Below, piece by piece: positions 6,578 to 39,272 of a DNA stretch of 64,000 nucleotides (positions are counted from its first letter, which is position 1; each line of letters begins with the position of its first letter). This stretch comes from Arcobacter sp. LC1 (GTDB taxonomy: Bacteria > Campylobacterota > Campylobacteria > Campylobacterales > Arcobacteraceae): NCBI GenBank assembly GCA_021378565.1, contig JAACJU010000001.1, positions 227,458 through 291,457 of the forward strand. The letters are read 5' to 3'. The position numbers and the translations under genes were made by a program. The notes under the pieces were generated by a model, which was not told the DNA's origin, made no database searches, and saw nothing but the letters and a program-made list of their open reading frames with translations.

Positions 6578-6765
6578 TTATTAGCCATCCTAAATAAGTA
6601 TTTAATTATTTTATCTAAATAGAGTTTAATATTTTTAACTTGAGAAAAAATAATTAGGTTTTATTTAGTTTTGAAGATAAGAATACGTAGCTCTCAATAC
6701 TGTCTATCTGCTTAGCAACAATTCATTTTTACATCCATAGGCAAATCAAAAGGTAAGAATAGTCA

Positions 6766-6783
6766 AAAAGGAATACACCTTTT
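6766..6783 (-). terminator. Probable intrinsic terminator after dctM
   Basis: Read on the minus strand, AAAAGG and CCTTTT form a six-pair stem around a six-base loop, followed by a T-run. It starts 15 bases after the dctM stop. The stem is short and AT-rich. It also lies upstream of hsdM, so it would separate the TRAP operon from the RM operon, which runs the same way. Confidence 0.45.
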
Positions 6784-6797
6784 AATATGCCAACAAA

Positions 6798-8102: not shown

Positions 8103-8106
8103 AATA

Positions 8107-15851: not shown

Positions 15852-17333
15852 ATGGGAGCAAGAAGAAATGGAGTAGAGCAAACACATGTTAATGACATTA
15901 ATTATATTTTAAAGTATACAATAGATAGTAGTGCATTCCATATATTCAAGTTAAATAATTGGATTGATGAATATAATTCTCGTCAAAAGAATAACATAAG
16001 TACATTAGACATTTTAAACAAACTCTATAAGAAGAATTGTGCAATTTGGTTTAATGCTCATGGTGATTTGTGCTATAGATTATCTCTTGATGGCGATACT
16101 ATTGTGAGCTCTTGGAAAAAAATAGGATATGTTTTTCACAATTTATTTGGATTAGATATAGAAGTAAAAAAGTATGGCTATGGCAAGCCAGTAGCAAAAC
16201 CTATAGATCATAAAAAGTTGGATAAACTAAAATATACTATTTATATAAATGAGTTGATAATGGTAGAAAAAGAGATTTTTTATCCAAAAATAAAACGAGA
16301 GTTTTGCAAGAAAGACAGGCTATTTCATAAAAATATATTTAAACCAACAAGGTTCATGACTCAAAATGAAGTGTGTCATTATGAGTCAAAATATTCTATT
16401 ATATTACAGTACATTTACCATTTATCTAATTACAATAGAGAGCGATTTAATTATATCATTAATTGGTTAGCAAATATGTTTAATAACCTAACTAAATCAT
16501 GTGTAGCTTTAATACTAATTGGCAAAAAAGAGTCAGGTAGAGATATTTTATTTAATGACATTATAAAACCTTTGTTTGGATTTCAATACTGTATTGAAAT
16601 TGATGATAATGATTTAGAAGTTAAGCATTTTGATAAATTATTTAAAGATAAAATTTTTTATAATTTTAATGAAATTTCCCATGAAGCTATAGATAAAAAA
16701 ACAAAAAATATTTGCAAAGAAGTCATAGAAAGCAACGTTGTATTTATTGAGAAAAACTACAAAGAATCATATCAGGAAACAAAAATATTTGCTCAAACAC
16801 TCATTACAACTAGTAAGCCATATACACCAATTATTGATACTAGTAGATTAAATTACACTATTTTTAATATAAAACAAAATTTAGAAGAAATGCCAATACA
16901 AGATGGAATTAAAGTCAAGAGATTGCATCAATACATAAAAGATGATCTGAATAATTTTGTACTATTTTTAAAATCTTTTAAAGTTGATATTAGTTTAGCT
17001 AATCAACCATTTGATAAAGATGATAAAAATATTATGCTTGATTGCAACAAAGATATATATGAGATTTTTATTGAAGCTATTAAGACTGAAGATAAAGAGT
17101 ATTTCAAAAAGGTAAAAGATGATACTGCATTGTACAAAGGATTACTTTATGATTTTGATAGAGATAGAGTTAATCAAGCGAATCTTGCTAAATATTTTTC
17201 TATAATTTATCCAGAAGAACCAATTATGCACACAAAAACCTTACTCAAGAAATTAAGAGAACTAGATGACAAATTTTTTAATCATAATAATATTAAATCA
17301 AGCAATGGTAAACAGTTTTTTATAATTTTATAA
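15852..17333 (+). CDS. D5/NrS-1-like SF3 helicase-type replication protein with degenerate Walker A
   Basis: A 493-residue protein first after attL. The order of a helical region (residues 185-220), LIGKKESGRDILFNDIIKPLFG near 222-243 and KDKIFYNFNEIS near 277 matches the helicase domain of phage/plasmid primase-helicases, where the first segment is usually LIGxxGTGKST. Here the P-loop reads G224-KKES-G-R-D, so the invariant lysine and Ser/Thr are replaced, which should impair ATP binding. The C-terminal 90 residues look like a winged-helix region. No primase catalytic motif is visible. The role is presumably element replication; the assignment is by pattern only. Confidence 0.6.
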   Translation: MGARRNGVEQTHVNDINYILKYTIDSSAFHIFKLNNWIDEYNSRQKNNISTLDILNKLYKKNCAIWFNAHGDLCYRLSLDGDTIVSSWKKIGYVFHNLFGLDIEVKKYGYGKPVAKPIDHKKLDKLKYTIYINELIMVEKEIFYPKIKREFCKKDRLFHKNIFKPTRFMTQNEVCHYESKYSIILQYIYHLSNYNRERFNYIINWLANMFNNLTKSCVALILIGKKESGRDILFNDIIKPLFGFQYCIEIDDNDLEVKHFDKLFKDKIFYNFNEISHEAIDKKTKNICKEVIESNVVFIEKNYKESYQETKIFAQTLITTSKPYTPIIDTSRLNYTIFNIKQNLEEMPIQDGIKVKRLHQYIKDDLNNFVLFLKSFKVDISLANQPFDKDDKNIMLDCNKDIYEIFIEAIKTEDKEYFKKVKDDTALYKGLLYDFDRDRVNQANLAKYFSIIYPEEPIMHTKTLLKKLRELDDKFFNHNNIKSSNGKQFFIIL

Positions 17334-18019
17334 AGGTATTTAATAGTTAATAAATAATTTTATACACTTTATTATAAAAATTTACTTATTTAAATAGGTT
17401 TTAAATATTATTAGATACCTTATAAATATTTTAAAATACTCTTATAATATCTATTTTGTCGATATTTATTGGATTAAAGGGTTTTAAATTAATATTTTAC
17501 ATTTTATTTTTATCGTAATTATTTACTAGTATTTTTAAGTTTTTATTTGAATATATTGCTTAAGATACTATTTATAGCTACATTGAATTATTCATATTAT
17601 ATTTTTTTATATAAAATATCTTTTAAATTTTAGAAAAAGCATAGCAACATTGATATAAAATATGAATAACTTCTTAAGATTTTTTTACAATCAAAATGCT
17701 TTATAATATAATTTAAAACAATAGGTATAAATAATTCTAAAATGCAATATATAACCACATATATCTCGTTACGAGTAAAATGAGTCATCTTGTTAAAAAG
17801 ATTATCTCGAATTTAAATAAAATAAAAATTTTAACGAAAGCATTGTTTTGATGGGAATAGACCAAATCAATAATTCTTATATAATTACTACCTAATAACT
17901 ACTCTAATAATATTTTATTAATACATGGATATATAAATAATATTATTAAATATGCTAGTACTGCTATTACTTACTATTGATTTATTCCTAACAAATAAAC
18001 AAACAAGAGGAGAGTTAGT
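17334..18019. other. Long AT-rich non-coding region, possible replication origin
   Basis: Nearly 690 bases with no supportable gene, between the helicase-like and Rep-like genes. It is extremely AT-rich and contains a separated inverted pair, ATTCATATT at about 17590 and AATATGAAT at about 17660. A strong ribosome site (AGAGGAGAG) for the Rep-like gene lies at its end. Origins often sit beside rep genes, but no clear iteron array is visible. Confidence 0.35.
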
Positions 18020-18952
18020 ATGTTAGATATTAATTACAATACAGAAATAGACACTGTAGCACTACAATTAGACTTTGATAGTGCAGAAGAACAAAAAAAT
18101 GAATTTGATCAATTAGGAGACTGGATAATCGCTAAACGGTTAGGATTATTAAAATTTGATACAAATAAAACAAGTAAAATAAGAGTCCACGAACTCTATA
18201 GTGGTAAAAGTATAATAGCAACATTTAGCACAGGTGCTACAACAAAAAAAGATGATTACAATAGAGGTATTATAAAATATTATATTCGCATTAGAATAGC
18301 TGGATTAAAGAGCTACAACATAGTAGCTGATAGTGCTTCATCTAGTACGTTGGTAACAATATGTGCATATTTAAATGCAGCAGGAAAGAGTTATAGATTT
18401 GTTGAGCTTGATGTATGTCTTGATATATTTTGTTCATTTAAAAACATATTAGCAGTATGTACACAACGTACAGCAAGAACATCATACAACGATATTGGCA
18501 ATTTGTATAAAAATAGTACGAGTTATATAGAATACTTTCAAGATGCTTACACAAGGAAACAAGCTACCAAACGAGCTTACCTCTATGATAAACAAACCAA
18601 AGAAGGTTTGGCTTTTAATGTAACAAGATTTGAAATAAAATTACAAAATGGTTGGTTCTTAAACAATGAATTAAATGTAGAATCAATTATTAATACGATA
18701 AATCGTTATCATGTGATGTATTATAAAAATATAAGAAATAAAAAGTCAAAAATAAATCATTATAATAGCTATGCAAATGTAACAGCTAGGGAAATACGGC
18801 AACTAGAGTTTGAGAAATATAGGCTTTATCCCAATCAAAACATTATTAAAGAATTCATAAGACAAATACAATCAGTTTACATAGATCATTATGAAAATAT
18901 TGTTATTCCAACTTTATATCCAAAAAATAACTTTATAAAAGATTTTACCTAA
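18020..18952 (+). CDS. Putative replication initiation (Rep-like) protein
   Basis: A 310-residue protein preceded by a good ribosome site (AGAGGAGAG). RFVELDVCLDIFC near 130-145 and VTRFEIKLQNGWF near 200 resemble the acidic and basic motifs of plasmid/filamentous-phage replication initiators (gene II/RstA-like), and KRAYLYDKQTKEG precedes the latter. No HUH motif is obvious, so catalytic nicking activity is uncertain. It lies beside a large non-coding AT-rich region, consistent with an initiator binding its own origin. Confidence in the family is moderate to low. Confidence 0.5.
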   Translation: MLDINYNTEIDTVALQLDFDSAEEQKNEFDQLGDWIIAKRLGLLKFDTNKTSKIRVHELYSGKSIIATFSTGATTKKDDYNRGIIKYYIRIRIAGLKSYNIVADSASSSTLVTICAYLNAAGKSYRFVELDVCLDIFCSFKNILAVCTQRTARTSYNDIGNLYKNSTSYIEYFQDAYTRKQATKRAYLYDKQTKEGLAFNVTRFEIKLQNGWFLNNELNVESIINTINRYHVMYYKNIRNKKSKINHYNSYANVTAREIRQLEFEKYRLYPNQNIIKEFIRQIQSVYIDHYENIVIPTLYPKNNFIKDFT

Positions 18953-19094
18953 TATATATAATGATAAAAGAATAAAATTAAAAACTACTTATTACTATGC
19001 GAAGAAACAACTATAGTTTCAGAAAAATCCATAAAGTTTTTCTTATTACAAAATTATATTGCTTTTAGCATAAAATATTTAATAGGACATTAAA

Positions 19095-19304
19095 ATGAAA
19101 ACGAATTTTGCAGAATTAATACCAAATGCCATATTGCTATCTATTAAAGATATAAATGACTTAAGAATTATTAAAAGTGATATGCTTAAGAAACTTATTT
19201 ATAATCGAGAAATAGAAGTTGTGAAATTAGGTAAAAAGAATTTTATCACAAAAATTGCATTAATTGCCTACTTAGAAAAAAATACAATTCCAGCTACAAA
19301 CTAA
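19095..19304 (+). CDS. Small helix-turn-helix/excisionase-like protein
   Basis: 69 residues. The pattern LSIKDINDLRIIKSDMLKKLIYNREIEVVKLGKKNFITKIALIAYLEKN fits a MerR/Xis-type DNA-binding fold: helix, recognition helix, then a short wing with a 'VKLGKKNFI' strand. Such proteins direct excision or regulate small elements. The start follows an aggacatt stretch at a suitable distance. It could be the excisionase partner of the integrase at 38-39 kb; that is inference. Confidence 0.6.
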   Translation: MKTNFAELIPNAILLSIKDINDLRIIKSDMLKKLIYNREIEVVKLGKKNFITKIALIAYLEKNTIPATN

Positions 19305-19387
19305 ACAACAAGATTACTAAATAAAATTTCCTCAACTATTTAAATATAAAATATATGACCCTACACTTTTTTAAAAAATAAAAAGTA

Positions 19388-19418
19388 CTACAAGCATAGC
19401 TAGTAGCTATGCTTGTAG
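19388..19418. terminator. Perfect 13-bp hairpin between convergent genes
   Basis: CTACAAGCATAGC pairs perfectly with GCTATGCTTGTAG around a five-base loop (tagta). It lies between the plus-strand excisionase-like gene and the minus-strand DUF2958 gene, 21 bases beyond the latter's stop, so it probably terminates transcription from both sides. Confidence 0.7.
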
Positions 19419-19439
19419 AGTGTTGTACAGCTTCAATAC

Positions 19440-19751
19440 TTAACTGAATTTCAAATCCTTTACGCCAGATAGCAACATAGGCTTAAATGATAAATCTCTC
19501 TCAACTTCTAAGCCTAAGTCCCCTCTAACAGATTCTAATTCTTTTAAACTAAAGTAACCTAACTCGCTTTCTAGCCCTTTGACATAGCCATAACAAGTAT
19601 TCTTATCATCTTTTGAGATTTCAATAACATACCAAGTCCAATTACTATCAGGAGTAAATAACTTAACATGACAGATTGGATCTTCTATTTCTTCTGTTTC
19701 ATATAAGTTTGGGATATTTGATAATATTGCTTTTGGGATAAACTTACTCAT
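19440..19751 (-). CDS. DUF2958-family protein
   Basis: 103 residues closely matching the DUF2958 consensus as I know it: DPICHVKLFTPDSNWTWYVIE, then GYVKGLESELGYFSLKELES and VRGDLGLEVERDLSFKP. Members are common on plasmids, integrative elements and phages; the function is unknown. Last gene of a minus-strand operon with the Rad52-like, Gp157-like and DUF932 genes (one-base gap from the Rad52-like gene), which suggests a role with recombination or establishment of incoming DNA. Confidence 0.85.
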   Translation of the reverse strand: MSKFIPKAILSNIPNLYETEEIEDPICHVKLFTPDSNWTWYVIEISKDDKNTCYGYVKGLESELGYFSLKELESVRGDLGLEVERDLSFKPMLLSGVKDLKFS

Positions 19752-19752
19752 T

Positions 19753-20415
19753 TTAGGCTACTTGCTTTTGGATTCTTTTATACCAAAGCTTAGAAGAGCC
19801 ATCCCACTTAAATCCCTCGGCTTTAATGGTAGTTTTCTTAGAAAAGATATTATCTCCCATTACTATAAGATTATCTCCTTGCTCTACAACTTGTAAGCCT
19901 AAATTATAAAGTGAACTATAATTTTGGGGTACAGCATTTTGCACTTGCTTAGCCTGTGTATTAGCGTCTTCTTGCTTGTTTGGATAATTACGACTCTTGT
20001 CATATAGCGAATTACCGAACTGATTGCCAAAGCTCCTAAGGCTTCTTTTAATTGCGTCAGTTACTGCTTCTTTTGCACCACTCTCATGAGCGTCAGCTAA
20101 CGCTTTTGCAATACCAGTACCAAATCCTACATCTTCTCTTTTTATTTGATTTAAGTGCTGTGAGTCGTATACAATAACTGATATGATTGCCTTATAACAA
20201 ATAACGATATTTTGGTTTTGATTATTCTCTTGTGATACTTGTTCTAAATTTGATATTGAGTAACTCCAAGCACCATAACCAAATACTTTATTAGCTGTTT
20301 CAATGATGTCAAATCCTTCTAAATAAGAAAGATTGATATTACCTTTTTGGCGACTTTTTATTCTTTTACTATCTAGTTGATTGTCTAAAATTTTTATTTG
20401 TTTATCGTTAAACAT
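19753..20415 (-). CDS. Rad52/Rad22-like single-strand annealing protein
   Basis: 220 residues. Residues 20-140 follow the Rad52 fold: SYLEGFDIIETANKVFGYGAWSY, then REDVGFGTGIAKALADAHESGAKEAVTDAIKRSLRSFGNQFGNSLYDK, almost the family consensus. The protein should bind single-stranded DNA and anneal complementary strands. The C-terminal tail is a linker plus a short KAEGFKWDGSSKLWYKR module seen in other mobile-element proteins. On mobile elements this family promotes recombination during replication or repair. Its operon partners are Gp157-like and DUF932 proteins. Confidence 0.88.
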   Translation of the reverse strand: MFNDKQIKILDNQLDSKRIKSRQKGNINLSYLEGFDIIETANKVFGYGAWSYSISNLEQVSQENNQNQNIVICYKAIISVIVYDSQHLNQIKREDVGFGTGIAKALADAHESGAKEAVTDAIKRSLRSFGNQFGNSLYDKSRNYPNKQEDANTQAKQVQNAVPQNYSSLYNLGLQVVEQGDNLIVMGDNIFSKKTTIKAEGFKWDGSSKLWYKRIQKQVA

Positions 20416-20426
20416 AATGTTCCCCT

Positions 20427-21017
20427 TTATGCCACGTCTTCAATAATATTTTCTAATTCATCTATTTGATTATCTGATATTATTGAGTGTTTTATATTTA
20501 CTTTTACCTTTGCAGGCACTGTGATTGTAGTTAAAACAGTAGATACAAGTTTATCTAATTCTTTTAACCCCTCTTTAGTCTCTAAAGCTTTCTCAATAGC
20601 CTCAATGTCAGGCTCAAACTTTACATACCCTAGTCTCATAACCTCGTTAGAATCTAAAATATCTAAGATTCTTTTGGTTTTTCTAGCTTCTTTTGTAAGA
20701 GTAATTGAGCTAACAATATTTCCATCTATTCGCTCAATCCCGTTATCTAAAAACACTGTTGCTATAATCTCTTTTGCAATGTCCAGTGATGTTGATAACT
20801 TCTTTTTATATTCTTGAAACTGCTTAATACTTTGGGATAAAGTATCTATTTTTGCTTTTAATTCATTCATCGATAAACCGACATAATCAGCCTTTTGATA
20901 ATAAGCTTTCGAAGTATCCTCAAGTATTCCTTGAAGATACTCTTTAAAAAACTTTGTTGGTTTATCTTTTGTTAAATACTCTATTTGGTTTTCTAATTTA
21001 TAGTTTATAAGTTTCAT
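20427..21017 (-). CDS. Gp157-like (siphovirus) protein
   Basis: 196 residues. The helical N-terminal half (about 40-100) contains LSMNELKAKIDTLSQSIKQFQEYKKKLSTSL, followed by a beta segment with NGIERIDGNIVSSITLTKEARK near 95-115. This pattern matches the siphovirus Gp157 family of phages and mobile elements, often found beside single-strand annealing or nuclease genes. The biochemical role is not settled. It sits 11 bases upstream of the Rad52-like gene in the same operon. Confidence 0.72.
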   Translation of the reverse strand: MKLINYKLENQIEYLTKDKPTKFFKEYLQGILEDTSKAYYQKADYVGLSMNELKAKIDTLSQSIKQFQEYKKKLSTSLDIAKEIIATVFLDNGIERIDGNIVSSITLTKEARKTKRILDILDSNEVMRLGYVKFEPDIEAIEKALETKEGLKELDKLVSTVLTTITVPAKVKVNIKHSIISDNQIDELENIIEDVA

Positions 21018-21028
21018 TACCCTACTCC

Positions 21029-21838
21029 TTATGCAACTAATGCTAATTCAGGCTCTTTAATAGAAGCAATTTTCTCAGCAATCTCCCAAAGACCTTTGTT
21101 TACAGTTACATCTTTTGAAATTGAAGTAATCTCTTTGCTAGTAAAATTTCTACCAGTATCTTGATTTATTCCAGATACATTTCCCTTAAGGAGATTTTCC
21201 TGGATAACGTTAAGAGTCGTATAAAGATCATCTTTGCAATCTTCACTTCTATGTGATATAAGTAAATCTTCATAGTTTACCTGCAAGTGTTTACCAAATC
21301 TAAGTAAAATACTGCTCTTAGCAAATGATTCTTTTTCAAATTTAGATAGCTTTATAGCTTCTAGTTTTTTAATCTTATCAATTAGCTTAGGTTTAATCTC
21401 TGTAATGTTTTCTATTGCCGTAGCTACGTCATTATCCCTAACTCCAAGATGTTTAATCTTATACGCTTCAAAAACATTATCTGAAACGATCAAACCATTT
21501 GCACATACAAATCTATAAATACCTGCTGATATTGAAAAGCTTTTAGTTCTATCATGACTGTTAAACAAAAGCAGTTCTACTGCATTATCTTTTGGATTTA
21601 TTAAATCTTCAAAATTTCTAAATCTTACTAGGTGCTGTTGATAGCCTTCTCTTTGTATATCTCTTACGCTTGATTCTGCGACATTTACTGGATACCAATT
21701 GTGTGATTTTATTTCATTGATAACATTAATAGTTGGGATAAAGTGATATTTATCACTTACTTCATAGTATGGCTCTTGCGTAAAAAGTGCTGGAGCTTGT
21801 TCTCTTAACTGTTCATTTGTTAATGGTTTTACTAACAT
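21029..21838 (-). CDS. DUF932-family protein
   Basis: 269 residues with YHFIPTINVINEIKSHNWYPV near 30-50 and a region reading ELLLFNSHDRTKSFSISAGIYRFVCANGLIV near 90-120, the typical DUF932 pattern from plasmids and phages (LxNSHDGxxAxxxxxGxxRxVCxNG). The function is unknown; it is usually encoded with recombination or anti-restriction genes. First sizeable gene of the minus-strand recombination operon, preceded by two small membrane-peptide genes. Confidence 0.83.
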   Translation of the reverse strand: MLVKPLTNEQLREQAPALFTQEPYYEVSDKYHFIPTINVINEIKSHNWYPVNVAESSVRDIQREGYQQHLVRFRNFEDLINPKDNAVELLLFNSHDRTKSFSISAGIYRFVCANGLIVSDNVFEAYKIKHLGVRDNDVATAIENITEIKPKLIDKIKKLEAIKLSKFEKESFAKSSILLRFGKHLQVNYEDLLISHRSEDCKDDLYTTLNVIQENLLKGNVSGINQDTGRNFTSKEITSISKDVTVNKGLWEIAEKIASIKEPELALVA

Positions 21839-22639: not shown

Positions 22640-23638
22640 ATGGAAGATGAATTAAATAAAATTACATTACAGGCACAAAAATATATTGAAGATATACCTG
22701 TAATTGTCTTAGGTAGTGGAGCATCGGTCGCATATGCCTTACCAACCATGTCGAGCCTATCGGAATATTTAAAGAAGAATATTAAGATAAAATCAAATGA
22801 AGGGTGGAATAAATTTGTTAGCTTATTAAATAAAGGCACTGATTTGGAAACTGCCCTACAAAATGAAGCATTGGATGAGAAAATTATAAAAAAGATTATA
22901 ATAAAAACATGGGAGTTAATAAATAAAAAAGATATTGAAGTTTTTTTTGAAAGCTTATCTATTGCTGATTATTTTTCATTATCTAAATTGATAAATAAAT
23001 TATTTTCAAGTACATGTAAAGAGTTAAATGTTATAACTACCAATTATGATAGACTAGCAGAATATGCTTGTGAAAAAAATAATTCATACCACTATACGGG
23101 ATTTACTTCGGGATTTTGTAGAACAAAAATTTCAAAAGATTTAATTAAAGTTGGTAGAAAAGTAAATATATGGAAAGTGCATGGTTCACTTGGCTGGTTT
23201 AGGGATTCAAAAGGTACTCTAATCGGCCTACCTAATATTAAAACTATCCCCAAAGGATTATTTCCAGAAATTGTAACACCAGGAATAGAAAAATATAAAA
23301 AAACACATCTTGAACCATATCGCACAATAATTCAAGAAGCAGATAAAGCATTGGAAGATAATAATAGTTATATTTGCATTGGCTACGGATTCAATGATGA
23401 ACATATTCAAGAAAAATTAGTAAATAAGTGTATTCAAAATAATTCGAAACTTATAATTATAACGAGAACATTAACAAAAGCTACAAAAAAATTTATTGGA
23501 AAAAAAGGATGTAAAGACTATTTAGCATTTGAGTGTCATGATGGTACAAAAACAAAAGTTTACTCATCTAACTTTGATAAGCCAATTATTTTGAATGGCA
23601 ACTATTGGTCATTAGATGGTTTTTTAAAATTAATATAA
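22640..23638 (+). CDS. SIR2-family defence protein
   Basis: 332 residues with the SIR2 NAD-binding motifs: GSGAS at residues 25-29, TTNYDR near 132-137, the presumed catalytic histidine in WKVHGSLGW near 181, and CIGYGFNDEHI near 250, typical of defence-type SIR2 proteins that hydrolyse NAD+. There is no zinc finger, unlike deacetylase sirtuins. The HerA gene starts ten bases later, so this is the SIR2 half of a SIR2-HerA (Nezha-type) anti-phage system, in which the two proteins form a complex that depletes NAD+ during infection. Confidence 0.86.
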   Translation: MEDELNKITLQAQKYIEDIPVIVLGSGASVAYALPTMSSLSEYLKKNIKIKSNEGWNKFVSLLNKGTDLETALQNEALDEKIIKKIIIKTWELINKKDIEVFFESLSIADYFSLSKLINKLFSSTCKELNVITTNYDRLAEYACEKNNSYHYTGFTSGFCRTKISKDLIKVGRKVNIWKVHGSLGWFRDSKGTLIGLPNIKTIPKGLFPEIVTPGIEKYKKTHLEPYRTIIQEADKALEDNNSYICIGYGFNDEHIQEKLVNKCIQNNSKLIIITRTLTKATKKFIGKKGCKDYLAFECHDGTKTKVYSSNFDKPIILNGNYWSLDGFLKLI

Positions 23639-23648
23639 AGGATTTAAT

Positions 23649-25373
23649 ATGAATATTTTTGATTATAACGACGATGAAACATTAGGTAAAGTAATATCAG
23701 TTGATACAGCTGTAGTTATAATAGAAGTTGAAAATGCAAATAAGCTTAAAAGTTTGCAAGTTAACAGATTAGTAGTTTTACAAAGTTCAAGGCCAGAGCA
23801 GTATTTGATTGGGCTTATAAAAAAATTGGTTAGAAAAAAGATATTTGATGAAAATCTAGAAAAAGGTGAGCCCACAGAAGAAAACTTATGTAAAATTACT
23901 TTAATTGGGACATTTAAAAGTAAAGATGGTACAAAAGAAAATGTGTTTACAAGAACATTAGAAACCGTTCCTGAAATTGATGCAAATTGTTTTACTCTTG
24001 AAAAAGAAAAACTAACAAATTTTATGAAAGTAATTTCACAATTAAGTAATGAAAAAAATTCATTGTCGATTGGTCATTATACTTTGGACGATAATGCAAA
24101 AGCATATTTAAATGGTAACAAATTATTTCAAAGACATGCTTTTATAGGTGGGAGCACAGGAGCAGGAAAGTCTTGGACTACAGCTAAGATTATTGAGCAA
24201 ATGGCAGAATTAAGCAATGTTGACTCTATTATTTTTGATTTACATGGAGAGTATAAACCTTTAGGAGAAAATAAAAATATAGAATATTACAAAATTGCTG
24301 GTCCAACGGACATAAAAAATAAGGAAGGGCTTGCTGATAATATTCTCCATATACCGTATTGGCTATTAAGCTATGAAGCGTTGGTATCTATGTTTGTCGA
24401 CAGAAGTGATCAAAATGCACCTAACCAATCCATGATAATGGCAAGAGAAATTAAAAATGTAAAAGAAGAGTATCTAAAAGAAAGAAAAAGTGATATTCTA
24501 TCAAATTTTACAATAGATAGCCCTATCCCTTTTTCATTGAAAATGTTATTAAAAAAATTACATGATATAAATTCTGAAATGGTGCCTGGAGCTAGAAGTG
24601 AAAAACAAGGTGAGTTTTATGGAAAACTAAGCCGTATGATTTCAAGACTTGAGAACAAAATTTATGATAGGAGAATGGCATTTTTGTTTGAAGCAGGAAA
24701 AGATATTATGGAATTTGAGTGGCTAAATAAATTAGTGTCAACTTTAATAGGTGTCGCCAGCGAAAATGGAAAAGCAGGTATTAAAATAATTGATTTTTCA
24801 GAAGTACCATCTGATATTTTGCCTTTAATTGTTAGTTTGATTGCACGACTTTCATTTTCCGTGCAACAATGGACAAAATTAGAAGACAGGCATCCAATCG
24901 CACTTTTATGCGATGAAGCACATCTATATATGCCCAATAAGAGTAATGCAAGTGCAAGTGATGAAATATCTTTAAGTATTTTTGAAAGGATTGCAAAAGA
25001 AGGAAGAAAATATGGATTAAGTTTAGTAGTAATTAGTCAACGACCATCAGAAGTCAACAGAACAGTTTTGAGTCAATGTAGCAATTTTATAGCAATGAGA
25101 CTTACAAATACAGATGATCAAATGGTTATAAAAAAATTACTTCCTGATAATTTAGGTGGATTTGGAGACATATTGCCTATACTTGACATAGGTGAGGCTT
25201 TGATTGTTGGTGATGCAAGCTTATTGCCAAGTAGAGTTAGAATTGATAAACCCAATATAACTCCAAATAGTGGCACAGTTGAATTTTGGGATGAATGGCA
25301 AAAAAGTGTTAATGAAGATAGAATTAATAATGCAGTTAACAACTGGCGAAAACAAAATATAAGTGATAGATAG
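23649..25373 (+). CDS. HerA-like ATPase (DUF87/FtsK-type), partner of SIR2
   Basis: A 574-residue hexameric-ATPase-type protein. The N-terminal beta domain (about 1-140) resembles the HAS-barrel; Walker A is GGSTGAGKSW near 167-176, Walker B is ALLCDEAHLYMP near 417-428, and SQRPSEVNRTVLSQCSNFIAMRLTN near 463 carries the HerA/VirB4 arginine-finger region. It overlaps the next gene by one base. HerA proteins translocate DNA with NurA in archaea; here no NurA is present and the SIR2 neighbour defines it as the ATPase of a defence complex. Confidence 0.88.
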   Translation: MNIFDYNDDETLGKVISVDTAVVIIEVENANKLKSLQVNRLVVLQSSRPEQYLIGLIKKLVRKKIFDENLEKGEPTEENLCKITLIGTFKSKDGTKENVFTRTLETVPEIDANCFTLEKEKLTNFMKVISQLSNEKNSLSIGHYTLDDNAKAYLNGNKLFQRHAFIGGSTGAGKSWTTAKIIEQMAELSNVDSIIFDLHGEYKPLGENKNIEYYKIAGPTDIKNKEGLADNILHIPYWLLSYEALVSMFVDRSDQNAPNQSMIMAREIKNVKEEYLKERKSDILSNFTIDSPIPFSLKMLLKKLHDINSEMVPGARSEKQGEFYGKLSRMISRLENKIYDRRMAFLFEAGKDIMEFEWLNKLVSTLIGVASENGKAGIKIIDFSEVPSDILPLIVSLIARLSFSVQQWTKLEDRHPIALLCDEAHLYMPNKSNASASDEISLSIFERIAKEGRKYGLSLVVISQRPSEVNRTVLSQCSNFIAMRLTNTDDQMVIKKLLPDNLGGFGDILPILDIGEALIVGDASLLPSRVRIDKPNITPNSGTVEFWDEWQKSVNEDRINNAVNNWRKQNISDR

Positions 25374-26410
25374 TGGGGATAAATACAAAAACACATAAAA
25401 TGTTGTGGGGAAGATCTGGAAACAGATGTGCTATGCCCGAATGTAGGAAAGAATTAGTTATGGATATATCCGAAACAGACGATGAGTCTTTAATTGGAGA
25501 AGAGTGTCATATTGTGGCTAAAAAGCCAAATGGTCCAAGAGGTGATAAGAATTTTGATATTAAAAAATTAGATGTATATGATAATTTAGTTCTTATGTGT
25601 AGGAATCATCATAAAACTATAGATGATATTCCAAATGTTTACACTATCAAAAAATTAAATATAATTAAACAAGATCATGAATCATGGGTTAAAAATCAAT
25701 TAACAAGTTCTGACAAAAGAAAACAAAAAGATGATAAATCATATGCAGTATTTGTTGATAAGTGGGTAAAATTATCAAATTTAGATAACTGGGAAGAATG
25801 GACATCTTTTGTTCTAGGAGACAATTGTCCAAAACTAACTGCTGACATGTATGAAAATCTTCAAAAATTAAAAGAATGGTTATTTGCTATAATTTGGCTA
25901 AATAAATATATGGAACTTGAAAATGCCTTTGAAAATTTTAGACTAATTTTAGAAGATTTTATAAATGAATTTGGGAAATACTCAAAAAAACAAGGAGAGT
26001 TGTATTATACAGAAAAATTCTATAAGTTGGAATGGCATGATGATAAGGGTAAATATGATAGATTAGCAAAACAGTATGATTTTCATGTTTCTCTTGTAGA
26101 AGATTTAATAATCGAACTAACTAGAGCTTCGAATTATATCTGTGATTTAATTAGAAAATATATTGATTCATCGTTTAGGCTAAATAAGGGATTTTTAATT
26201 ATTTCAATTGGTCCAGTACTTAAAAATGGTCCGCCCCCGCAACTAATTTACCAACAGCTTAAGGCTGAATACACCAAAGATGATCTAACTAGAGATGTTT
26301 TATATGGAAATCTTGAAACATTCAAAGAAATTAGAACTAAAAGAGATTATTGCAGGGGTGTAGGAATTGATGAAAATGATGAAAAATTTTTAGAATATTT
26401 ACACCAATAA
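25373..26410 (+). CDS. HNH endonuclease-domain protein, third gene of the SIR2-HerA operon
   Basis: 345 residues starting at a GTG that shares its G with the HerA stop (TAGTG). Residues about 10-85 form a zinc-type HNH nuclease: CAMPEC near 18-23, EECHIVAK with the HNH histidine near 46, and NLVLMCRNHHKTID near 71-84. The remaining 250 residues are helical and aromatic-rich, with WVKLSNLDNWEEWTSF near 125; I recognise no family there. Tight coupling to HerA suggests it acts with the SIR2-HerA complex, perhaps adding DNA cleavage, or is a separate nuclease defence gene. Confidence 0.78.
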   Translation: MGINTKTHKMLWGRSGNRCAMPECRKELVMDISETDDESLIGEECHIVAKKPNGPRGDKNFDIKKLDVYDNLVLMCRNHHKTIDDIPNVYTIKKLNIIKQDHESWVKNQLTSSDKRKQKDDKSYAVFVDKWVKLSNLDNWEEWTSFVLGDNCPKLTADMYENLQKLKEWLFAIIWLNKYMELENAFENFRLILEDFINEFGKYSKKQGELYYTEKFYKLEWHDDKGKYDRLAKQYDFHVSLVEDLIIELTRASNYICDLIRKYIDSSFRLNKGFLIISIGPVLKNGPPPQLIYQQLKAEYTKDDLTRDVLYGNLETFKEIRTKRDYCRGVGIDENDEKFLEYLHQ

Positions 26411-26494
26411 CCAATTTGTAACAAGATTTTGGATACACTGCACTTTATATTAAAAGACCAAAAAATAGCTTTAATCAATATGATTAAAGCTATT

Positions 26495-29400
26495 TTAAAT
26501 TAACTCAATGGTTTCTTTATCTAAATCCTCAATCAACTCAATAGCACTCAAAACACCATCTTGCTCATTTTCATTTAAATTACCAAAATAACCTGATATT
26601 GGATGCAAATCACTAGTTAAGAAGCCTCTCACATTAGTAATTGATTTATGAACATTCATAAACTGTTTTCCTTGTATTGTCTTTTTTATTTCAATCATCA
26701 CTTCAATTTGTTTTTGTGTATAAGTGCTTTTTGCGATAAAATTATCTAAAATATTATTTGCAACTTTTTTGTTAGAAGAGTTAATTATGCTTTTAATAAA
26801 ATTTCTAAAATCCTCATTGTCATTTAATTTATCATCAATTATTTTATCCATATTATGAAAATGATATTCGATGTTATCTATATCTGTACTTGTTATTAAT
26901 TCTGTTTTTTCAAGCTTTTTAATGAAATGTAATTTTTTTATATATTCTTCTAATACTTTTTGTATTTCTGTTTTTATGGATGCCTTATCAATATAGCTAT
27001 CACTTCTTAAATTTTCTATTTTTAAAATTTTATCGCTAAAGTTCGTTTTTACAGTTGTATTATTTTTTTCTTTTGATATGTCTGCAAGATTTTCGATTCC
27101 TAATCTAACTGTTTCTAAATCATCAATACTATTTTTCAAATCAAATTTATTATTTATTACATCATTTATAATATTTTCTTTTTCTTTAATAGCATTAATA
27201 CTTGAAACCTTTGATTTCAATACAAAACAACGCTTATTTATATCGTCCACGTAAGCTCTATTACTTTTTTTATTTAAAATAGATTCTTCTGCATTTAGTA
27301 CTTCCATCTGAAAACTTTGTATTTGATATTCGGAATTATCTTCTATGTATTGAGCTATTGTTTGAATCTTTTTATATAATTCATCTGTTATATATTCAAG
27401 TTTATTAGATTGCAATTCCTCGATTTCAGCTCTATTCTTTTTTACAAAGTATTCATCAATATTGATATTTGATATTTGTCCTCTAACTGTATTTAATAAC
27501 GTATCTTTAAAAGTACCATTTTTAACAGTCCTTAAAATATTAACTCGTTTTAAAAATAGACTCTCTTTCAAAGATACTGTTTTTCGACTTTCTTTTCCAT
27601 TGGGATTGCTTCCAAAGTATGTAAAGTTATTACAAAAATCAAATATATTAAAGTATGCTTTATCTTCATTATCTCCAAATAAATTAGGGCAAAGTCTAGT
27701 TCCTCTTCCTATCATCTGCCAAAACTTTATTTTAGATTTTACTTGCTTAAAAAATACAAGATTTACTATCTCTGGCACGTCAATACCAGTATCAAGCATA
27801 TCAACACTTATAGCAATTTGAGGATTTTTAGATGCATTTTTAAAGTTATCTATTAGACTATCTACATGTGAGATTTCGCTGTGTATTACTTGTGCTTCAT
27901 CATAACTTTTAGGATACAATATATCAAATCTTTCTTTTATAAACTGGGCATGTTTAATATTTTTAGCAAAAATTATCGTTTTCCCAATCCTGTTGCCCTC
28001 TTCTATTTTCAAGCCGTATTCTTTCAAATGCTTAAGTACTTTATCATTTGTGTCTTGGTTAAATATTCTTTTGTTTATTTCTTGCGATGATATGTCATCT
28101 TCATTATCAAACTTATCCTCCCATTCTTCTTTTTCATCGACACTTAAATCAGCGTACACCAAACCTTTTTGCACAATTCCTAAATCAATCTCATAAGACC
28201 TAAAATTAACTAACCAATTATCAGCTATTGCTCTATCAAGAGGATAATTATCTGTTGGTTCTTCAAAAGATGTATCAAAAAAATCATAAGTATTCCTATG
28301 CACTTCACCAGTCGGAGTTGCAGTAAGTCCCAAAATTAAGCTATTAAAATATTCAAAAATTGCTTTATACTTTTTATATATTGTTCTGTGTGCTTCATCT
28401 ATAATAATCAAATCAAAATATGCACTATTGTATTTTTCATTTTTTATAAGATTATGGACTGTCTCGTAAGTGCCAAAATGCATACGATTATCTAAATCTT
28501 TTTCTAGGCCTAAATTAACGCTTGTCTCCTTAAGATATAAATCAAAATTAGTCTTTGCTTGTTTTACTAATTCTATTCTATCTGCTAAAAATAAAATCTT
28601 ATTTATCCATTTAGCTCGTATCAAAATATCCACTATGCTAATGCCTACTCTTGTTTTGCCTGTACCTGTCGCCATAACCAGTAATGCTCGTTTTTTAAGT
28701 GCTTCAAAATTTTTAAGAACACTTTTAATAACTCTATATTGGTATTCTCTATCAGTTATATTGGAATTTACTATTTTATCCGTTGGTTTAATATTTTTAA
28801 TAAATTGTATTTTATTTAAAGCTCGAATTAGTTCATATTTAGGAAATATACTGTGTATCTCTTTAAGAGGATATACTCCATTGGTATATTGTATAACTCT
28901 ACCATTTGTTAAAAATATTAGGATATTATCTTGATTAAATTCTTTTTTAAGTGCTTGAGCATATAGGGAGGCTTGATGTTTTCCAATACTTACATCTTTA
29001 GAAAATCTTTTTGCTTCAATTACTGCTAAAGGTTTATCCTCATCATCCCAAAGTACATAGTCAGCATATCCTATTTTTCCATCCTCAAGTTTTAGTTTAT
29101 ACTCAATATCTTTACCTTTTTTGAAATTATCTACTTTATAACCAGCCTCTTTTAACTCTACATCAATTAGTAATTTTCTTGTATCAGCTTCATTTATATC
29201 TTCAACTTGAATAATCTTAGTTCTTTTAGTTTTCTTCTTATTAGCAGATTGTGAAGAAAATGATTTTTTTAGTTTTGTGAGTTCATCTTGTAGTTGTTTA
29301 TTTTCTTCCCCAAGAACATTTTGTTTAGTAGTCTGCAAAATTACTTCTTGTTTATTTAGGGTATCAGAAGATATTTTTGTGTCTTTTGCTAAGACTAAAG

Positions 29401-29806
29401 TATTATAAGAGCTATCAACCTCAACACTGCCATAAACCTCTACTATCCACCTTTGAAACTTATATAAACATTGGTTAGCATATAGGCTATCTTTGCTAGT
29501 AATGACCTTAGAAGAGTGGGCAGCTTGATTTCCAATTTTTCTAATAAGATTTAATTCAGATATATATTCTTTGGGTAATAAATTTTGAAAATCTTTATTA
29601 TTAATCAATCCAAATATATCAAGTTCTTTTATAAGTGAAACATCTAAATCTTCATCAATTCTATATACAAATTTTACAGAGTTTTCCAATGCTTTTCTTG
29701 AATATATTGCAGAAACTTCAGGATCATCAATAATATTAACTTCAGATTTTATAGATTCATTTTGTAAGATTTTAAATTCATTTTTTAAAAATAAGAAATT
29801 ACTCAT
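26495..29806 (-). CDS. hsdR: Type I restriction enzyme subunit HsdR
   Basis: 1103 residues. A DUF4145-like N-terminal domain (about 20-110) and coiled coil (150-195) precede the nuclease domain, with GYADYVLWDDEDKPLAVIEAKR near 247-268 giving the D...ExK motif. The SF2 motor follows: MATGTGKTRVG near 380, IIDEAHRTI near 471, LGLTATPT near 493, and QMIGRGTRLCPN near 697. The long helical C-terminal region probably binds the methylase complex. An EcoEI-like layout. It follows the MNT-HsdS fusion by 11 bases and looks intact. Confidence 0.93.
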   Translation of the reverse strand: MSNFLFLKNEFKILQNESIKSEVNIIDDPEVSAIYSRKALENSVKFVYRIDEDLDVSLIKELDIFGLINNKDFQNLLPKEYISELNLIRKIGNQAAHSSKVITSKDSLYANQCLYKFQRWIVEVYGSVEVDSSYNTLVLAKDTKISSDTLNKQEVILQTTKQNVLGEENKQLQDELTKLKKSFSSQSANKKKTKRTKIIQVEDINEADTRKLLIDVELKEAGYKVDNFKKGKDIEYKLKLEDGKIGYADYVLWDDEDKPLAVIEAKRFSKDVSIGKHQASLYAQALKKEFNQDNILIFLTNGRVIQYTNGVYPLKEIHSIFPKYELIRALNKIQFIKNIKPTDKIVNSNITDREYQYRVIKSVLKNFEALKKRALLVMATGTGKTRVGISIVDILIRAKWINKILFLADRIELVKQAKTNFDLYLKETSVNLGLEKDLDNRMHFGTYETVHNLIKNEKYNSAYFDLIIIDEAHRTIYKKYKAIFEYFNSLILGLTATPTGEVHRNTYDFFDTSFEEPTDNYPLDRAIADNWLVNFRSYEIDLGIVQKGLVYADLSVDEKEEWEDKFDNEDDISSQEINKRIFNQDTNDKVLKHLKEYGLKIEEGNRIGKTIIFAKNIKHAQFIKERFDILYPKSYDEAQVIHSEISHVDSLIDNFKNASKNPQIAISVDMLDTGIDVPEIVNLVFFKQVKSKIKFWQMIGRGTRLCPNLFGDNEDKAYFNIFDFCNNFTYFGSNPNGKESRKTVSLKESLFLKRVNILRTVKNGTFKDTLLNTVRGQISNINIDEYFVKKNRAEIEELQSNKLEYITDELYKKIQTIAQYIEDNSEYQIQSFQMEVLNAEESILNKKSNRAYVDDINKRCFVLKSKVSSINAIKEKENIINDVINNKFDLKNSIDDLETVRLGIENLADISKEKNNTTVKTNFSDKILKIENLRSDSYIDKASIKTEIQKVLEEYIKKLHFIKKLEKTELITSTDIDNIEYHFHNMDKIIDDKLNDNEDFRNFIKSIINSSNKKVANNILDNFIAKSTYTQKQIEVMIEIKKTIQGKQFMNVHKSITNVRGFLTSDLHPISGYFGNLNENEQDGVLSAIELIEDLDKETIELI

Positions 29807-29817: not shown

Positions 29818-31206
29818 TTAGCCTTGAAAACTTTTTTGAAGCAAGGCATCAAAATTGTATTGTAATTTATTAAGTTCTTGAATATATAGCTCTTTTTGCT
29901 CTTCTATTTTTTCTATTATTTTGGCGAATTTGTTTTGTAATACTGCTGGTGGATTTATTATATTAATATCTTTTAATTTTTGCGATGTAATACCTTGTAT
30001 TGTTGCACCTCGCTTAAAATTATTTAATACAACACTATAAAATTTAATAAAATAATAAATAAAAATTTGATTAAAATTATCTTCTATTTCTGTTAAAGAT
30101 ACAATATCTTGATTTGTACATAATTCATTTTTATTAATTGAAACTTTTCCAATACCCACTCTTGTACCAATAACAATTGAATTTCTAGGTATTATTTTAG
30201 TAGCACTCTTTAAAATTGCTTCGGTCGTTATAAAATCAACTGTATTAGTTTTATCTATATATAAACTTCCTAAAGAAACTGTTGTAATCCAAGGGATATT
30301 TCCTTTAAAAAAATCGTCATTTTCCCTTGAAGGAGTTCCACCTCCTTTCCAATTTCCAATAGTGCCAATTCTTAACATATTCCACTCCATAGGATTGACA
30401 ATAGGATCGCCAAACATATCAATAAAAATAGATTTTGAAAATTCATCAAGTTTAATAATAGATTCTTTTCTTAAATCAATAAGTTCTTGTGATTTATCTA
30501 GCAAAGTAGTTATTTGTTTTTGTTTTTTTAAAGAGGGTAATGGTATATCTATATTTTCAATATATTTTTTTGATATATTTTTTAATCCTGCACCCTTAAA
30601 ACCTTCTTCCAAAATATTTATATTTCCTGATAGATAGTGATAAATATATTTAATATCCATTGCATACTGCTGATTATTTTGAATTACATAACAATGGTCA
30701 GATGTAGAAAACTTACCATTATAATAATTAATATTTGCACTTCCACCATCACCTATAATTAAACTTTTACCCTCAAATATTGAAGAATTACTAAACTTTA
30801 ACTTGCCATTTCCTGATTTAAAAAATCTATATTTTCCATTTTTTAAACCTAAAGAAGCTTTCATTTTAGACTTTTTTAAAAATTCAAAACTGTCTTTCAA
30901 TTTAACTTTCTTGACAAAAAATAGCTTTTCATCTCTTAAGATATTATCTTTCAATTTATCATTAACTTTTTCAAAATGCACTATATCTATATTAAAAAGT
31001 ATAGGTAATTGATCAATTTCATATTTTAGCTTATTAAACTCTTTTTCACTCATTTGCACAGAGTAAACACAAATATCAATATCGCTTTTAGGGTTGCAAT
31101 CATGCCTAGCTCTTGAGCCAAATATCACCACTCTATCAATAAAATTAAACTGATTAAAAAATTCCTTTAGTTTTAAAGCCACTTGTTTTTCTATTTGATA
31201 TATCAT
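29818..31206 (-). CDS. MNT nucleotidyltransferase-HsdS fusion protein
   Basis: 462 residues. Residues 1-100 form a complete minimal nucleotidyltransferase: G30-S31-(10 residues)-D42-x-D44 and the third metal ligand D74 in NIDIVHFEK. The rest is a type I specificity subunit: recognition domain 1 about 107-225, spacer helices (IPLPSLKKQKQITTLLDKSQ) about 225-265, recognition domain 2 about 280-425 and a final helix. It overlaps the upstream HEPN gene by ATGA and precedes hsdR by 11 bases. MntA-type enzymes AMPylate a HEPN toxin tyrosine, so this links antitoxin chemistry to the DNA-recognition subunit. The single open frame shows no stop between the parts. Confidence 0.88.
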   Translation of the reverse strand: MIYQIEKQVALKLKEFFNQFNFIDRVVIFGSRARHDCNPKSDIDICVYSVQMSEKEFNKLKYEIDQLPILFNIDIVHFEKVNDKLKDNILRDEKLFFVKKVKLKDSFEFLKKSKMKASLGLKNGKYRFFKSGNGKLKFSNSSIFEGKSLIIGDGGSANINYYNGKFSTSDHCYVIQNNQQYAMDIKYIYHYLSGNINILEEGFKGAGLKNISKKYIENIDIPLPSLKKQKQITTLLDKSQELIDLRKESIIKLDEFSKSIFIDMFGDPIVNPMEWNMLRIGTIGNWKGGGTPSRENDDFFKGNIPWITTVSLGSLYIDKTNTVDFITTEAILKSATKIIPRNSIVIGTRVGIGKVSINKNELCTNQDIVSLTEIEDNFNQIFIYYFIKFYSVVLNNFKRGATIQGITSQKLKDINIINPPAVLQNKFAKIIEKIEEQKELYIQELNKLQYNFDALLQKSFQG

Positions 31207-31619
31207 TGTTCTTGGTAATCTTTTACAATACTATTATAAAAATTTTCAATAACAATTACATATGTTTCAATGATTCGCTCACCTAGTTTTTTTGCAAAAT
31301 CTTCATCGTATTCATGTGTTGTTTTATTTCTTTCTTCGTTCATATTAAACCAAGTATCATTATCTATAAAACCATATTCATGTGCTTTTTTAAAAAGCTT
31401 ATTTGCTGGCAAATCTGATATTTCACCTAAATATTCTAAATAAACTTTCATAAGTTTTTTAGATGTTTCATCACTACTTTCAAACCTTTTTATAATAAGC
31501 TCAAGATAATCTTCTTCATCATTTGTATCTAGTCTAGAATGATATTTTGCAATAGCAGATTTTAAACTTTTAATTCTTTTTTCTAGATTATTAATAGCTT
31601 CTTCTATTTTTACGCTCAT
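31203..31619 (-). CDS. HEPN-domain protein (HepT/HI0074-like), probable RNase toxin
   Basis: 138 helical residues with the HEPN motif R97-NKTT-H102-E-Y104 (Rx4HxY), in the context WFNMNEERNKTTHEYDE typical of the HI0074/nucleotidyltransferase-substrate-binding branch. Proteins with this motif are tRNA-cleaving toxins neutralised when MntA adds AMP to the motif tyrosine. The stop overlaps the MNT-HsdS start (ATGA) and its ATG overlaps the hsdM stop (ATGA), so it is translated between methylase and specificity subunit. All expected catalytic residues are present. The alternative is a non-toxic substrate-binding partner of the MNT domain. Confidence 0.85.
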   Translation of the reverse strand: MSVKIEEAINNLEKRIKSLKSAIAKYHSRLDTNDEEDYLELIIKRFESSDETSKKLMKVYLEYLGEISDLPANKLFKKAHEYGFIDNDTWFNMNEERNKTTHEYDEDFAKKLGERIIETYVIVIENFYNSIVKDYQEQ

Positions 31620-33070
31620 ATCATATCTCCTAGTTCATCTAGACCTTTTGATATTTTCATATTAATATCCTTTATGTTTTTTAAAATATTTTTAGGACTA
31701 TCATATTTAATAGTTTCATAGATTATATCTTTATACCTGTTTATGCTAAGGTCAAAATCATTTTTTTCTATCTCTTCTATTGCTACAAAAAAACTTTGCT
31801 CTGTTCTGTTTCTATTCTCTTCATTTTCAAGATTTTTAAACCTTTTTAAAATATCAGGTATATTTGAACCCTCACAAGCTGTTCTGTTGTCATTTAAGGT
31901 GTATCCATCATTATCCATATCGTAAAACCAAACTTTATCATTTTTATGTCCATTCGTTTTAGTAAATATCATAATAGCTGTACTTACACCAGCGTAAGGC
32001 TTAAATACTCCGCTTGGCATAGATATTATTGCATCTAACTGCTGGTTTGATACTAACTCTTTTCTTACCTCTTTATGTGCCTTTGTTGCACCAAAAAGTA
32101 CACCATCAGGGATAATAACGGCAGCTCTTCCTCCAATTTTTAAAGATTTTATAATCAATGATACAAATAATAGCTCAGTTTTCTTAGTCTTTGCAAGATC
32201 CAAAATAGACTTTGCAACTTCGTCAAAATCAAGTGAGCCTTTAAAGGGTGGATTTGCTAAGATAAGATTATATTTTTCTTCTTCATTTGAATTAAATCTT
32301 GCTAGGGCATCTTCGTTTAAAATACTTGCTTCGCTTATGCTATGAAGCATCATATTCATAGATGAAATCCTTGCCATAGAGACATCGAAATCATTTCCAT
32401 AAAACAAATTTTCAAAACCCTTAACTCCTAGGCTATTTAACACTTCAATTCTATTTGCTTTTATATATTCAATCGAATTAATTAAGAATCCAGCAGTACC
32501 ACAAGCGGGGTCATATATTTTAAAATCTTTATTTATTTCAATATCATTTAGTACCAGCTCAACCATCATTTTGATTATATGTCTTGGTGTTCTAAACTGT
32601 CCATTAGTTCCAGCAGATGAAAGCTTACTAAGCAAATATTCGTATAAATCCCCTTTAATATCTTTATCTTCAAGATTTAGTTCACTTACCATATCAACAA
32701 CTTTTTGAAGTAATTTAGCTGTTGGTATTAAAAAGCTTGCATCTTTCATATAGTGTGAAAAAGGGCTTTGTTTATCTGATAAATTCTTAATAAATTCAAA
32801 TACTTCATTTTGAAAAATACTATACATATCACTAGCACTATTTAGAGATAAAGTTTCCCATCGTAAATGTTGCTTGTCAGATGGAAATATATCCTGTAAA
32901 TCTTTATTGTTTCTTTTTTCTCTATCAATTTTAATTTGTGCAGTATCTAGACTTTTAATAAATATCAAATATGTGAACTGTTCGATCACAGTAAGTGGAT
33001 TTGATATACCGCCTGTCCAGAATGTTTCCCATATTTTATCTACTTTATTTTTTAATTCATTTGTTACCAT
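31616..33070 (-). CDS. hsdM: Type I restriction-modification DNA methyltransferase HsdM
   Basis: 484 residues. The N-terminal helical bundle is followed by GQFRTPRHIIKMMVELV, the AdoMet motif DPACGTAGF near 188 and the catalytic NPPF near 274. It is a different HsdM lineage from the one at 5.0-6.6 kb, judged by the divergent N terminus and flanks. First gene of hsdM-HEPN-(MNT-HsdS)-hsdR, with every junction overlapping or closely spaced. The upstream 273-base region separates it from a divergent membrane-protein gene and should hold both promoters. Confidence 0.92.
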   Translation of the reverse strand: MVTNELKNKVDKIWETFWTGGISNPLTVIEQFTYLIFIKSLDTAQIKIDREKRNNKDLQDIFPSDKQHLRWETLSLNSASDMYSIFQNEVFEFIKNLSDKQSPFSHYMKDASFLIPTAKLLQKVVDMVSELNLEDKDIKGDLYEYLLSKLSSAGTNGQFRTPRHIIKMMVELVLNDIEINKDFKIYDPACGTAGFLINSIEYIKANRIEVLNSLGVKGFENLFYGNDFDVSMARISSMNMMLHSISEASILNEDALARFNSNEEEKYNLILANPPFKGSLDFDEVAKSILDLAKTKKTELLFVSLIIKSLKIGGRAAVIIPDGVLFGATKAHKEVRKELVSNQQLDAIISMPSGVFKPYAGVSTAIMIFTKTNGHKNDKVWFYDMDNDGYTLNDNRTACEGSNIPDILKRFKNLENEENRNRTEQSFFVAIEEIEKNDFDLSINRYKDIIYETIKYDSPKNILKNIKDINMKISKGLDELGDMI

Positions 33071-38013: not shown

Positions 38014-39222
38014 TCATGGATGGTTTTCATCATTTTGTTTATCTGTCATTAAAGCATTCAAAGCATTAGTTGCTCTTGTAGCTTGCTCTTTTGTTTTATT
38101 AGCATATCTCTCTTCTGTAATTGCAATACTGCTATGGCCTAGCATTACGCTTATATCTGCTATTGGTACGCCATTTTGGACTAGAGTTGAGCCTAACATG
38201 TGCCTTATATCATGGAGTCTTAATTTTTGAATGCCTAAAGCCTTTAATAGTGATTGAAAGTGTATTCTTGGGGTTTCTTTTGTATATGAAAATATTCTTC
38301 TATTTAATGTCATATTAGTTACTCTAGTTGCAGATGCTTGTCTATTAATTGCTTCCAATAAATAGTGATCTAAATTATAAATCAAATCTTTTTTCCCTTT
38401 TGCTCTGCTTGATGGTATTTTAAATACATTTGTTTCAAAATTTATATCCGAATACTTAAGTCCTAGTACTTCACCAATTCTGCGACCAGTAAGTAAGAAT
38501 GCGAAAATATTTCTTACTTCAGGATATTGATACACTGCTTCACCATTAATTGGTAACTTCGAGTATTCTCTCATTGCATTAATTATTCTTTTTGTATCCT
38601 CAAGACTCAAAGTATATTCCACTTTATTATCAAACTCAGGCAATTCTAATCCATCCAAATTTAATCCAACTTTTTTAGCAAATGTTTTTAGCGTAATACC
38701 TAGTAAAGAAACCGTAGCTGGTGCATTTATTTTCATTTGTTTATTTATAATATCTTGAACATTTTCAATTGCAATGTCTTTTATGGCCAAATCATGGAGT
38801 GGTTTACAGTGGCTAAATAATGCAGTTTTATAATTTTTAATAGTCGATGGTCTTGCTGAAACTGACTTTGTTTCAATATATCTATCTGCTAGTTCTAAAA
38901 ATGTTTCTATTTTTTTAGATTCTACAGTAACTATTTTCTTTGGTCTTAATGTACCCTCTTTTATTAAAGTATCTTTTATAGTTTTTCTTTGATTTACTAC
39001 TTCTTCTAATGCATATAGGAATGTAGTCTTTTTCTTATTGAATTCAAAAGTCTTTTTACCTGTTTTGTTCCCTACTTTTGCTCTTAATTGCAATTTGAAA
39101 GGATTTGTGAGTAACCTTGTAGCTTCTTTAGAATTTGTAATACAGCTAATATTTGCATTGGTAAATAAATATATACCCTTGCAGTCTTTATTTGGTATTT
39201 TTATATTAATATATTTTCCCAT
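38014..39222 (-). CDS. int: Tyrosine recombinase (site-specific integrase)
   Basis: About 402 residues: an N-terminal arm-binding region, SAM-like core-binding domain (about 100-190) and catalytic domain with TGRRIGEVLGLKYSD near 244, the HxxR box LHDIRHMLGS near 338, LGHSS, and the nucleophile tyrosine in ITEERYAN near 372. All catalytic residues are present. I chose the ATG at 39222 because AAGGATAAAT precedes it; the upstream GTG at 39258 falls inside the GTACACTTT repeats. It ends about 90 bases before the XRE-like gene and starts about 160 bases from the attR core, the expected position for an element integrase. Confidence 0.92.
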   Translation of the reverse strand: MGKYINIKIPNKDCKGIYLFTNANISCITNSKEATRLLTNPFKLQLRAKVGNKTGKKTFEFNKKKTTFLYALEEVVNQRKTIKDTLIKEGTLRPKKIVTVESKKIETFLELADRYIETKSVSARPSTIKNYKTALFSHCKPLHDLAIKDIAIENVQDIINKQMKINAPATVSLLGITLKTFAKKVGLNLDGLELPEFDNKVEYTLSLEDTKRIINAMREYSKLPINGEAVYQYPEVRNIFAFLLTGRRIGEVLGLKYSDINFETNVFKIPSSRAKGKKDLIYNLDHYLLEAINRQASATRVTNMTLNRRIFSYTKETPRIHFQSLLKALGIQKLRLHDIRHMLGSTLVQNGVPIADISVMLGHSSIAITEERYANKTKEQATRATNALNALMTDKQNDENHP

Positions 39223-39240
39223 ATTTATCCTTATATCGAG

Positions 39241-39272
39241 GTACACTTTTAGGTACACTTTAAGTACACTTT
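39241..39272. repeat. Three direct GTACACTTT repeats near attR
   Basis: GTACACTTT at 39241-39249, 39253-39261 and 39264-39272, in the same orientation as the two near attL. They lie between the integrase start and the attR core, suited to integrase arm-type binding and to autoregulation of the integrase promoter. Confidence 0.6.

Follow-up and report, generated by a model that had tools for sequence, protein, structure and literature searches.

Three genes that lie end to end on one strand of an Arcobacter genome raise the question of whether they encode a single defence system or two that share an operon. The window analyzed here, a stretch of 64,000 nucleotides to which all coordinates refer unless another locus is named, comes from a 1.86-Mb genome of the Campylobacterota, with Aliarcobacter faecis (Arcobacteraceae) as a relative in the same family. 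According to its open reading frames, genes for a SIR2-family NADase, a HerA-like ATPase and an HNH nuclease follow each other in this order on the + strand. The preliminary description of the locus had taken the tight coupling of these genes as a sign of a three-component variant of the SIR2-HerA (Nezha-type) system, in which NAD+ depletion is combined with DNA cleavage. We arrived at another reading, to which we assign a probability of roughly 70%: two independent defence modules on one transcript, namely the SIR2-HerA pair and an autonomous HNH nuclease docked behind HerA.

Gene layout and expression

The SIR2 gene (22640–23638, +, 332 aa) is separated from the HerA gene (23649–25373, +, 574 aa) by a gap of 10 bases, and the TAG stop codon of HerA ends at position 25373, the same base at which the GTG codon of the HNH gene begins. 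Both junctions, including the TAGTG overlap, are thus as the preliminary description had given them. Translation of HNH very probably starts at the GTG at 25373, because in the sequence alignment this codon coincides with the ATG of relatives whose proteins start with MGIS.KT.KMLWG. No terminator-like site was found between HerA and HNH, and co-transcription of this stretch is therefore likely. The only hairpin lies 3' of HNH, an A+U-rich 16-pair structure at 26462–26496, where the HNH and HsdR genes converge (−17 kcal/mol, z −6.1); it is a possible terminator and has a U-tail on the − strand only. Co-expression of HNH with SIR2-HerA is very likely; what the overlap by one base suggests is co-transcription with translational coupling, not a common mechanism. 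The GC content of HNH (0.286, versus 0.275 and 0.308 for SIR2 and HerA) does not set it apart, and therefore neither favors nor disfavors a recent insertion. An Rfam scan of the window at gathering thresholds returned no matches.

The SIR2-HerA pair

The assignment of the first two genes to the SIR2-HerA (Nezha-type) system held up, as both proteins matched the corresponding PADLOC models over nearly their full length (SIR2, PDLC04087, 419 bits over residues 5–332; HerA, PDLC04105, 801 bits over residues 1–570). These scores are far beyond chance. In Pfam, the two proteins matched SIR2_2 (9.7e-11) and DUF87 (2.9e-32), respectively. The SIR2 motifs named earlier were all located, with GSGAS at residue 25, TNYD at 134 and VHGS at 180, and N135 (in TTNYD) and H181 (in VHGS) were invariant in an alignment of nine SIR2 proteins. 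In HerA, the Walker A motif GGSTGAGKS spans residues 167–175 and the Walker B motif LLCDEAHLY residues 419–427; here K174/S175 and D422/E423 were invariant among eight aligned HerA proteins. N135 and H181 can be equated with N168 and H227, the NADase residues of the Vibrio cholerae A103 SIR2 protein (PMC11559045), by motif and via SIR2 alignments from the PDB rather than by direct alignment. In this V. cholerae member, the active-site Asn and His of SIR2 as well as HerA are all required for phage immunity (PMC11559045). As in relatives, sir2 lies directly upstream of the herA-like gene on the same strand. Judged by its sequence, the pair is an ordinary member of a two-component system that is already known.

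Genes downstream of HerA at other SIR2-HerA loci

Plasmids, viral contigs and genomes of Campylobacterota were the sources of SIR2-HerA loci, of which 25 other than the window were left after duplicates and loci lacking usable downstream sequence had been dropped. The HNH-family and C-terminal profiles matched none of the 25 (330 kb, E up to 10). The HNH gene was missing even at the two closest Campylobacterota loci, with HerA identities of 81% and 79%. At most of the other loci no co-directional gene follows HerA, and many plasmids and viral contigs carry the pair lacking a downstream co-directional partner. Where the position is occupied, its content varies. The A. faecis plasmid (81% HerA identity) has a DUF6602 gene 8 bp after HerA (7347–8126, −, in locus L017), whose product contains an ELDILLYD...GIIEVKA pattern that, by eye, could be a PD-(D/E)XK site. 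A 1754-aa helicase follows HerA in genome G327 (79% HerA identity), and a DUF3644 gene follows after 98 bp in genome G394 (57% HerA identity; 7446–8432, −, in locus L019). In Neotabrizicola, HerA is followed by an ATPase and another HNH gene in a Septu-like arrangement, and larger restriction-like operons follow it in a planctomycete and in Klebsiella. Viral contigs scanned with the single HNH protein, the single HerA protein or the alignment of the HNH C-terminal part yielded no relatives; unlike these queries, the HerA alignment did.

Domains of the HNH protein

The HNH nuclease domain occupies residues 1–111 of the third protein (25373–25705, +) and was recognized with Pfam, PADLOC and PDB searches. 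Residues C19, C24, E43, H46, N71, C76, H79, H80 and D84 of the motif are common to the relatives. The Pfam HNH_2 score of 20.2 bits fell just under the cut-off of 21, and the PADLOC models, those for Cap5/HNH-SAVED and PDC-M68A, matched at residues 3–117 only, the best being PDC-M68A with 113 bits over residues 4–112. In the PDB, residues 1–112 matched 9om4_A (6e-27) and the HNH domain of Cap5 (7rwk_A, 7e-10).

The remainder of the protein (residues 112–345; 25706–26410 including the stop codon, +) comprises about 234 residues rather than the 250 first reported. Its unfamiliarity was confirmed by the lack of any Pfam or NCBIfam match. Across the loci scanned, a profile of this domain matched only the seven members of the HNH family, which share 23–59% identity in this part. 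Among 394 Campylobacterota genomes it was found in the window's genome only, in a pattern-based scan of contigs that misses divergent relatives. AlphaFold models from four sequences had a mean pLDDT of 56.6 for the whole HNH protein and 61.3 for the C-terminal part alone. Foldseek searches with the HNH protein models found nothing at E below 0.001, and a second structure aligner returned generic four-helix bundles only (best Z 8.9, against a designed bundle). The models suggest that the domain is probably mostly helical, a bundle that ends in a beta hairpin; as they are of low confidence and the structural matches are generic, no fold is claimed. The C-terminal domain is rare and undescribed, and the most plausible reading of the protein is as an autonomous nuclease in which this domain is joined to a Cap5-like HNH domain, with DNA cleavage and an antiphage function as its predicted roles. 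In CBASS Cap5, the C-terminal receptor that controls the HNH nuclease is a SAVED domain (PMC8568899), and by analogy we infer that the C-terminal domain of the window protein senses infection.

HNH relatives elsewhere

Full-length HNH relatives were found at six other loci, giving a family of seven with the window, and at none of the six did SIR2-HerA lie beside the HNH gene. The relative in Pseudoalteromonas NC201 (46% identity, 6971–8031 in locus L012) is the only open reading frame between attC ends with the core sites GTTAAGT and ACTTAAC...GTTAGGT, and an integron integrase is encoded nearby (TIGR02249, 290.6 bits, cut-off 265). Likewise, the relative in Vibrio aestuarianus (42% identity, about 3912–5020 in locus L022) sits alone between repeats of a cassette array with 15 attC-like repeats, of which those at 3776 and 4917 flank the gene; no integron integrase was seen on this 10-kb contig. 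By their attC-like ends and single open reading frames, these two homologues, as distinct from the window copy, qualify as integron cassettes at the level of sequence. In Rhizobium BG6 (3275–7993 in locus L013), a relative with 40% identity lies behind a Gabija pair (GajA, 855 bits; GajB, 673 bits), starting 97 bp past the end of gajB. The other relatives are located on an IncC plasmid of Shewanella, near an LlaJI-type restriction gene in Alkalihalobacillus, and in a different context in a Bacteroidales bin. In total, two of the seven loci have the HNH gene behind a two-gene defence operon, and at three it adjoins defence or restriction genes.

The facing type I restriction operon

On the opposite strand, a type I restriction-modification operon faces SIR2-HerA-HNH. 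It consists of HsdM (31616–33070, −), a HepT-like protein with an RNKTTH motif (31203–31619, −), an in-frame fusion of an MNT domain (motif GSRARHDCNPKSDID) with the N-terminus of HsdS (29818–31206, −), and HsdR (26495–29806, −), which is convergent with the HNH gene. A HEPN/MNT-type pair is thus embedded in the operon. The same order of HsdM, HepT and MNT::HsdS, with the in-frame fusion, was present in two genomes (G176 and G119) from other Campylobacterota families of the order; by eye, HsdM and HsdS of G119 appear to differ in sequence, seemingly representing another restriction-modification lineage. Recurrent MNT::HsdS loci are L105 (4061–5862) and L106 (3976–5813). The fusion might possibly act as a guard, in that loss of HsdS would also remove the antitoxin. 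Literature searches, by title and abstract, found no account of a type I operon with an embedded HEPN/MNT pair. Around the defence genes, the window further contains replication-like, recombination-like and DUF932 genes as well as an integrase-like open reading frame (15852–21838 and 38014–39258), assigned mostly by eye, which suggests that an integrated mobile element carries the defence genes.

Two modules or three components

The distribution of the HNH gene is what argues for two modules. Since its other relatives travel without SIR2-HerA, two of them as lone cassettes, the trio probably represents two neighboring defences, and its persistence alone in integron cassettes indicates that the HNH gene does not need SIR2-HerA. 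The adjacency in the window is best explained as docking of the gene behind an expressed defence operon. HerA would assemble and activate the SIR2 NADase upon infection so that NAD+ is depleted, as known from characterized members. The HNH nuclease would probably be kept inactive by its C-terminal domain until that domain responds to an infection cue, and the HNH domain would then cut DNA. Inserted directly 3' of HerA, the gene would be expressed by read-through and stop-start coupling. Two observations weigh on the other side: a co-regulated complex, too, would be compatible with the overlap by one base, and the occurrence behind two-gene defence operons at two of seven loci could be more than chance. 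With a family of seven, there may also be a lineage-specific partnership between SIR2-HerA and HNH in this one bacterium.

In the three-component arrangement proposed at the outset, the HNH protein would bind the SIR2-HerA assembly and add DNA cleavage to NAD+ depletion. Such coupling would fit the TAGTG overlap, the lack of a terminator-like site from HerA to HNH and the position of the only hairpin after HNH; the E. coli SIR2-HerA system reportedly has both NADase and nuclease activity (PMC11559045), and a two-component anti-phage complex of a HerA-based ATPase and a nuclease is described (PMC11291478). However, the recurrence downstream of SIR2-HerA that was to be checked did not appear, the six full-length relatives sit elsewhere, and single-gene cassettes sustain the gene. 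Lacking recurrence from either the HerA side (0/25) or the HNH side (0/6), we rejected this arrangement as very unlikely; a literature search, by title and abstract, found no description of such a trio. Somewhat less improbable, though still unlikely, is that the position 3' of HerA is a slot in which facultative nucleases or RNases, none of them obligatory, are exchanged and act downstream of SIR2-HerA. The succession of HNH in the window, DUF6602 in A. faecis (with its possible nuclease site, assigned by eye) and DUF3644 in G394, at gaps of 8 and 98 bp for the latter two, points in this direction, but the slot is empty of co-directional genes at most loci and, where filled, often holds unrelated large defence operons, as expected in defence islands. 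A selfish or housekeeping role for the HNH protein, as a nuclease unrelated to defence that resides in a defence island by chance, is highly improbable: the protein does occur alone in integrons and on an IncC backbone with no recognized defence partner, yet its HNH domain is closest to the anti-phage effectors Cap5, HNH-SAVED and PDC-M68A, and at three of seven loci the family has defence or restriction genes as neighbors.

Under the two-module reading, the locus illustrates that operon adjacency can mislead, as a gene that overlaps a stop codon by one base travels alone elsewhere. It also draws attention to a small, single-gene nuclease family, mobile in integrons, that may carry its own sensor. 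We tentatively propose, at somewhat less than even odds, that the HNH gene founds an undescribed family of single-gene anti-phage nucleases, in which a Cap5-type HNH domain is combined with a new sensor domain in place of the cyclic-nucleotide receptor, and which is spread by integrons and repeatedly docked behind systems such as SIR2-HerA and Gabija.

Comparison with known systems

The window HNH protein shares with CBASS Cap5 (HNH-SAVED; PDB 7rwk, 7rwm) the cysteine/histidine pattern of the N-terminal HNH domain, with about 100 residues aligned. Unlike Cap5, it has no recognized SAVED domain, as the Cap5/SAVED models end at residues 117–138; this is a sequence test, and a remote relation in fold is possible. 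No CD-NTase gene was recognized beside it, where the neighbors are SIR2, HerA and type I restriction-modification genes, and the only nucleotidyltransferase found nearby is the MNT domain fused to HsdS. A role as CBASS effector was considered and rejected: the HNH half fits, but the SAVED half and the cyclase are absent. Similarly, only the HNH half aligns with the phage-defence candidate PDC-M68A of PADLOC (profile positions 6–114 of 253). Residues 1–112 align end to end with PDB 9om4 chain A, an HNH endonuclease of 435 aa, whose remaining 320 residues, in contrast, have no sequence match to the window protein. The Rhizobium homologue resembles the window copy in being the next gene after gajB, as the latter is after herA; the window differs in lacking Gabija, which is a separate system. 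Compared with the SIR2-HerA (Nezha-type) system itself, sir2 and herA adjoin in the window in the same order and with similar spacing to relatives, and what distinguishes the locus from the 25 others is the added third gene, HNH, overlapping the herA stop codon.
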